From Candidatus Nitrosopumilus sp. (GTDB lineage: Archaea; Thermoproteota; Nitrososphaeria; Nitrososphaerales; Nitrososphaeraceae): 39,996 bases of DNA. Within the stretch, counting starts at the first letter, position 1; each line of letters opens with the position of its first letter. The DNA is taken from positions 1 to 39,996 of the forward strand of contig JACDHC010000003.1 in assembly GCA_013821245.1 (NCBI GenBank). Reading direction: 5' to 3'. Position numbers and translations under genes: made by a program. This document shows, piece by piece, positions 18,316-39,434 of the stretch. The notes below the pieces were generated by a model. It did no database searches and had not been told where the DNA came from. It worked only from the letters and a program-made list of their open reading frames with translations.

Positions 18316-18408
18316 TGCCGCCGGTGAGATTTGAGCTCACGACAGCTCGGTCTTCAGCTTCACCCTATATAAATAGTCGAGTGCTCTTCCAGGCTGAGCT
18401 ACGACGGC
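18316..18408 (-). tRNA. tRNA-Phe (GAA) with non-canonical intron
   Basis: Reverse strand GCCGTCG-TA-GCTC-AGCCTGGAA-GAGC-A-CTCG[ACTATTTATATAGGGTGAA]G-CTGAAGA-CCGAG-CTGTC-GTGAG-CTCAAAT-CTCAC-CGGCGGC-A. Mature 74 nt forms a full cloverleaf with one G-U in the acceptor stem. Confidence 0.88.
18359..18377 (-). other. Putative 19-nt tRNA intron at position 30/31
   Basis: Removing ACTATTTATATAGGGTGAA restores a 5-bp anticodon stem CTCGG/CCGAG. Bulge-helix-bulge: CACU(25-28)/GGUG (intron) 4-bp core, 3-nt bulges CG|A and AA|G, intron hairpin CTAT-TTAT-ATAG. Confidence 0.75.
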
Positions 18409-18560
18409 ACAGATTATTTTCTGCTTTTTTATATTATATATATTATTGCTTTACTTTTGTGTACATATCAATAAATATTTCAGATTAAATTATTATGTTA
18501 ATTCTTTAGGAAAATTTAATCTTAATCTAAATTAGTATATTAAAGTATGTTAAAGGATTA

Positions 18561-39214: not shown

Positions 39215-39298
39215 GCGGGGGTCGCCTAGCCTGGTAGGGCGTGGGATTGCTAATCCCATGTTCGCAAGAACTCGTGGGTTCGAATCCCACTCCCCGCG
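39215..39298 (+). tRNA. tRNA-Ser (GCT)
   Basis: GCGGGGG...TGGGA-TTGCTAA-TCCCA anticodon arm, long variable arm (TGTTCGCAAGAACTC), T-arm GTGGG-TTCGAAT-CCCAC, acceptor TCCCCGC, discriminator G. Confidence 0.95.
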
Positions 39299-39434
39299 CT
39301 ATTCTTGGGGATTTATTAAAAAAAATGCACACATGAATAAGAATGCTAAAGATTTAAAAAGAAACTCGGATTGTCACGCAAGCAAACCAACACCAATGGC
39401 AAACGTCTAGTTCAAGGAAAAAGAGAAAAAGGTT

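Follow-up and report, generated by a model that had tools for sequence, protein, structure and literature searches.

The window, that is, the whole stretch of 39,996 nucleotides that was analysed, comes from a soil-type ammonia-oxidising archaeon of the Nitrososphaeraceae and carries an interrupted tRNA-Phe(GAA) gene on its minus strand (18408..18316). The gene is matched by the Rfam tRNA model (44.5 bits, E 2e-6), whose alignment leaves a 24-nt stretch unplaced at the anticodon loop, and its 3′ exon does not encode CCA. An A/T-rich, TATA-box-like stretch located 20-36 nt upstream is a possible promoter. The scanned neighbours encode a cobalamin adenosyltransferase, an HD-domain protein, a threonine dehydratase and an HMG-CoA synthase, and no integrase was found among them; as these are housekeeping genes, an adjoining mobile element was rejected. 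The window also contains an intronless tRNA-Ser(GCT) gene on the plus strand (39215-39299).

Table 1. Features of the interrupted tRNA-Phe gene and its predicted precursor structure (window coordinates)
Feature	Position	Strand	Basis
tRNA-Phe 5′ exon, positions 1-30 (acceptor strand, D arm, 27-CUCG-30)	18378..18408	-	Rfam match, excision scan
Intron, 19 nt, ACUAUUUAUAUAGGGUGAA, at 30/31	18359..18377	-	best excision, same-site introns in 61/400 class genomes, joined exons in intronless relatives
tRNA-Phe 3′ exon, positions 31-73 (G31, anticodon loop, T arm, acceptor, discriminator A)	18316..18358	-	Rfam match, excision scan
Anticodon GAA, positions 34-36	18353..18355	-	excision scan
Predicted exon junction after splicing, ...CACUCG|GCUGAAGA...			
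BHB core helix, 5′ strand CACU, tRNA positions 25-28	18380..18383	-	partner strand GGUG or AGUG in all 61 distinct introns
BHB core helix, 3′ strand GGUG, within intron	18361..18364	-	intron comparison
Inner intron helix, 5′ strand CUAU	18373..18376	-	covarying helix
Inner intron helix, 3′ strand AUAG	18365..18368	-	covarying helix
5′ splice-site bulge CG|A (C29 G30|A)	18377..18379	-	intron comparison, shuffle test
3′ splice-site bulge AA|G (AA|G31)	18358..18360	-	intron comparison, shuffle test
A/T-rich, TATA-box-like stretch upstream of the gene	18428..18444	-	read from sequence

A cloverleaf score was computed for every single excision of 0-30 nt. The top score (26.5) was obtained by removing the 19 nt from 18377 to 18359, which restores the whole cloverleaf, including the correct anticodon and a full 5-bp anticodon stem (CUCGG/CCGAG); ARAGORN calls this spliced 74-nt molecule tRNA-Phe(gaa). 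The interruption lies at positions 30/31 and is therefore non-canonical, that is, at a site other than 37/38. The second-best excision (25.5) yields the anticodon ATT and matches the tRNA-Asn(ATT) that ARAGORN reports, as a miscall, for the unspliced gene.

A pattern for the 30/31 intron was run over 400 genomes of the class and matched in 61 of them, including 53 of the 62 genomes of the same family (Nitrososphaeraceae) and eight genomes distributed across four other families. An uninterrupted tRNA-Phe pattern was matched in 184 further genomes of the class, mostly belonging to one large sister family, and no genome was seen to match both patterns. The commonest sequence of the intronless gene, GAGCACTCGGCTGAAGACCG, reads exactly as the spliced junction is predicted to. 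In six genomes of the family neither pattern was matched, possibly because of assembly gaps. Carriers include Nitrososphaeraceae and several Candidatus Nitrosocosmicus, and the introns in genus mates of the window genome are identical to Nitrosocosmicus introns; a separate DNA search covering the genome itself and 100 relatives gave tRNA-Phe matches in 82 of the 101 genomes. The 30/31 intron is ordinary for Nitrososphaeraceae and represents the norm there, and it was probably inherited from an ancestor of the family. Three genomes of the same family (G037, G042 and G047; loci L107, L108 and L110) have a tRNA-Phe without an intron, and their 30-40 pair is flipped, giving the stem CUCCG/CGGAG rather than CUCGG/CCGAG; comparison of these genes suggests that loss or replacement went along with a base-pair change that was compensated.

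A total of 61 distinct introns of 15-42 nt were recovered, a length too short for an embedded guide RNA, which was rejected. All of these orthologous introns retain the four core pairs and the geometry of a bulge-helix-bulge (BHB), i.e., a 4-bp central helix with a 3-nt bulge at both cut sites. The core helix, which here pairs C25 A26 C27 U28 with GGUG and includes one G-U, covaries among CACU/GGUG, CACU/AGUG, CACC/GGUG and CAUC/GGUG, the partner of U28 being either G or A, and CACU being replaced by CACC or CAUC in some introns. Within the intron, which can form the inner hairpin CUAU-UUAU-AUAG, helix positions 1 and 2 are paired in all 61 introns with three Watson-Crick types each. Over the four positions of the inner helix, 215 of 244 cells are paired, compared with 141.6 +/- 6.4 after re-dealing of the 3′ strands (no more than 165 in any of 2000 trials) and 79-171 when the strands were slid by 1-2 nt; because the aligned genomes share ancestry, the 61 introns do not count as independent cases and these pairing counts are inflated, an effect that the slid controls share. 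An equal core together with a 4-bp inner helix arose in 79 of 200,000 shuffled introns.

The outer helix comprises at most 2 bp (G24-C32 and A23-U33), and these pairs would compete with the D stem. The strict, canonical BHB, with strong flanking helices on the outer as well as the inner side, is accordingly not what is seen: the inner helix has 4 covarying bp and the outer one at most two, which places the structure in the accepted subclass of relaxed BHBs (PMC6379350). When the sequence was folded alone, the BHB-constrained structure (-28.9 kcal/mol) was not favoured over the minimum free energy structure (-30.3 kcal/mol), and the core pair probability was approximately 3%; the structural claim thus rests on comparison, which shows the predicted relaxed BHB to be maintained, through compensatory changes, in the 61 distinct introns. 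The first-pass annotation had already proposed this arrangement, including the 19-nt removal that gives a 74-nt tRNA-Phe(GAA), the interruption at 30/31, the BHB with this core, these bulges and this hairpin, and a weak outer helix of the relaxed type. The excision scan, the ARAGORN call for the spliced molecule, the uninterrupted tRNA-Phe genes of related families, the 61 introns and the shuffle test all agree with it; the assignment of the gene to the minus strand, the limit of two pairs on the outer helix and the expected competition with the D stem are added here.

Among the alternatives, a real intron whose cut is shifted by one nucleotide (29/30 or 31/32) lowers the simple cloverleaf score by just 2 units. 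However, such a shift breaks the 31-39 or the 30-40 pair and destroys the BHB geometry, as the first-pass annotation had anticipated for 31/32, and its product differs from the sequence of the intronless relatives, which makes it very improbable. Since same-site introns, a conserved and covarying BHB and intronless relatives that read the spliced junction all converge, a splice junction at 30/31 is considered nearly certain on comparative grounds.

Another reading is that the gene is a remnant and that an intact second tRNA-Phe elsewhere does the work. The genome assembly (2.28 Mb, 94.6% complete) consists of 323 contigs, and G032, a member of the same family, has five tRNA-Phe genes, both of which leave some room for such a copy. 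Nevertheless, the tRNA set compiled from Rfam matches and 33 extracted loci, together with Rfam and BLAST searches of the 2.28-Mb, 94.6% complete genome, revealed no second tRNA-Phe, that is, none of the intact tRNA-Phe(GAA) copies that the first-pass annotation had named as evidence against its proposal, and the tRNA-Phe exons have one match in the genome. Moreover, the complete, single-contig genomes G005, G007 and G013 of the same genus each have one tRNA-Phe gene, with the intron present. The single copy both here and in these complete genomes renders a pseudogene unlikely, and there is little chance that the locus is a mere remnant. Finally, an intron-free degenerate tRNA (pseudogene) or tRNA-Asn(ATT) with a large, unusual variable region, to which the ARAGORN call and the ATT excision only one unit lower in score might point, has a negligible probability and is refuted by comparison with orthologues: the intronless ones are tRNA-Phe(GAA), and the exons but not the intron loop are conserved in relatives. 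In addition, all tRNA arms are intact, and a tRNA-Asn(GTT) is present elsewhere in the genome (L025).

With regard to the multiple genes of G032 (L054, L102, L104-L106 and L220-L224; all GAA), the 30/31 introns of the four additional copies are longer (33-42 nt) and rich in pyrimidines. The copies share approximately 115-130 bp, corresponding to the tRNA itself, and their flanks are largely unrelated, a pattern resembling the spread of a tRNA gene that carries an intron.

Two PF01974 (EndA) genes were identified in the genome, encoding an alpha subunit of 183 aa (L039:1234-1785) and a beta subunit of 229 aa (L040:1114-1803). The alpha subunit carries Tyr120, His128 and Lys159, whereas the beta subunit has the Tyr and Lys and lacks a His at the aligned place; one gene with the catalytic triad and one without it correspond to the (alpha beta)2 type. 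The best solved relatives of EndA alpha are crenarchaeal EndA proteins (2cv8, 3p1z and 3ajv), and its crenarchaea-type specificity loop (CSL), Lys38-Pro39-Lys40, aligns to K44-P45-R46 of A. pernix EndA, so that the conserved lysine of the (alpha beta)2 type is at the place of K44, which confers a broad substrate range on the A. pernix enzyme. Thaumarchaeota have been assigned alpha2beta2 endonucleases in reviews (PMC4090602, PMC3218864), and efficient removal of relaxed BHB introns has been ascribed to the (alpha beta)2 and epsilon2 enzymes only (PMC6379350). Judging from these genes, the 19-nt intron is almost certainly cut out by a two-subunit splicing enzyme, in line with the heteromeric endonuclease expected in the first-pass annotation. 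Two EndA genes were detected in most of the 71 genomes searched, with or without the tRNA-Phe intron, implying that the enzyme permits the intron and does not predict it.

We are thus highly confident that the locus is a functional tRNA-Phe(GAA) gene, probably present in one copy, and that its transcript would contain a 19-nt, protein-spliced intron at the non-canonical position 30/31. In the proposed pathway, the EndA alpha2beta2 heterotetramer would cleave both 3-nt bulges between their second and third nucleotides (CG|A, AA|G), with predicted cuts at 18378|18377 and 18359|18358, and a tRNA ligase would then join the exons. Formation of the 5-bp anticodon stem and charging of the tRNA would be possible only after joining.

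To date, 30/31 has been explicitly listed among the non-canonical tRNA intron sites (PMC4090602), and tRNAscan-SE 2.0 includes a Thaumarchaeota-specific BHB model, with 107 non-canonical introns counted in the phylum (PMC8450103). The non-canonical intron noted in the first-pass annotation is therefore real and was correctly read, but its rarity was overstated, the site being a listed one and the intron the norm in the family. No paper in the library searched was found to treat the tRNA-Phe intron of Nitrososphaera/Nitrosocosmicus or its family-wide conservation, although the intron may well be recorded in GtRNAdb/SPLITSdb. Like the non-canonical introns of Crenarchaeota and Thaumarchaeota, the intron is short, of the BHB type and found in an alpha2beta2 lineage. 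It shares the 4-bp BHB core, the 3-nt bulges and, as predicted here, removal by EndA with canonical 37/38 archaeal introns, but differs from them in lying within the anticodon stem and in having a relaxed (hBH/HBh′-like) structure without a strong outer helix. The split tRNA-Lys(CUU) of Nanoarchaeum and Staphylothermus is joined at the same position by the same BHB logic (PMC4090602), whereas the tRNA-Phe exons lie in one transcript (in cis), 19 nt apart. In short, the arrangement seen in tRNA-Phe is already known from archaea, and this example of it is well conserved.

A non-canonical tRNA intron kept at its place across one archaeal family, with scattered occurrences in four further families and uninterrupted genes in sister families, offers a clean natural series for tRNA intron gain and loss and for the tolerance of weak outer helices by alpha2beta2 EndA. 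It also matters for annotation based on ARAGORN, in which the gene becomes tRNA-Asn(ATT) and the genome seems to be devoid of tRNA-Phe. A more speculative and rather unlikely idea is that the intron is held family-wide for a function, for example by making anticodon-stem formation, and hence maturation or G37 modification of the sole tRNA-Phe, dependent on splicing, or by shielding against integrases, with loss in one Nitrososphaera-like subgroup accompanied by the base-pair flip (CUCCG/CGGAG).

The genome has a very intron-rich tRNA set (e.g., the Trp, Arg, Gln, Glu and Asp genes at L031, L032, L034, L036 and L038), although the exact cuts are approximate for some of these introns. The other non-canonical introns are located in the variable region of tRNA-Lys(CTT), near 26-28 in tRNA-Asn(GTT), near 29/30 in tRNA-Pro(GGG) and in the D arm of tRNA-Arg(CCT), Gln(TTG), Glu(TTC), Asp(GTC) and, apparently, a second tRNA-Glu (read by eye); tRNA-Trp has a T-arm intron (read by eye) in addition to a canonical one, and canonical introns are present in tRNA-Ala(TGC) and Cys(GCA). 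Isotypes from ARAGORN with introns allowed were not relied on, as several were wrong, such as Ile(TAT) for L025, which is Asn(GTT) after intron removal. Two identical tRNA-Gln(TTG) genes close to contig ends (L034, C126:285-341; L035, C282:20-76) probably represent an assembly duplicate, and L042 contains the 3′ half of a tRNA-Thr(GGT), possibly an integration remnant.
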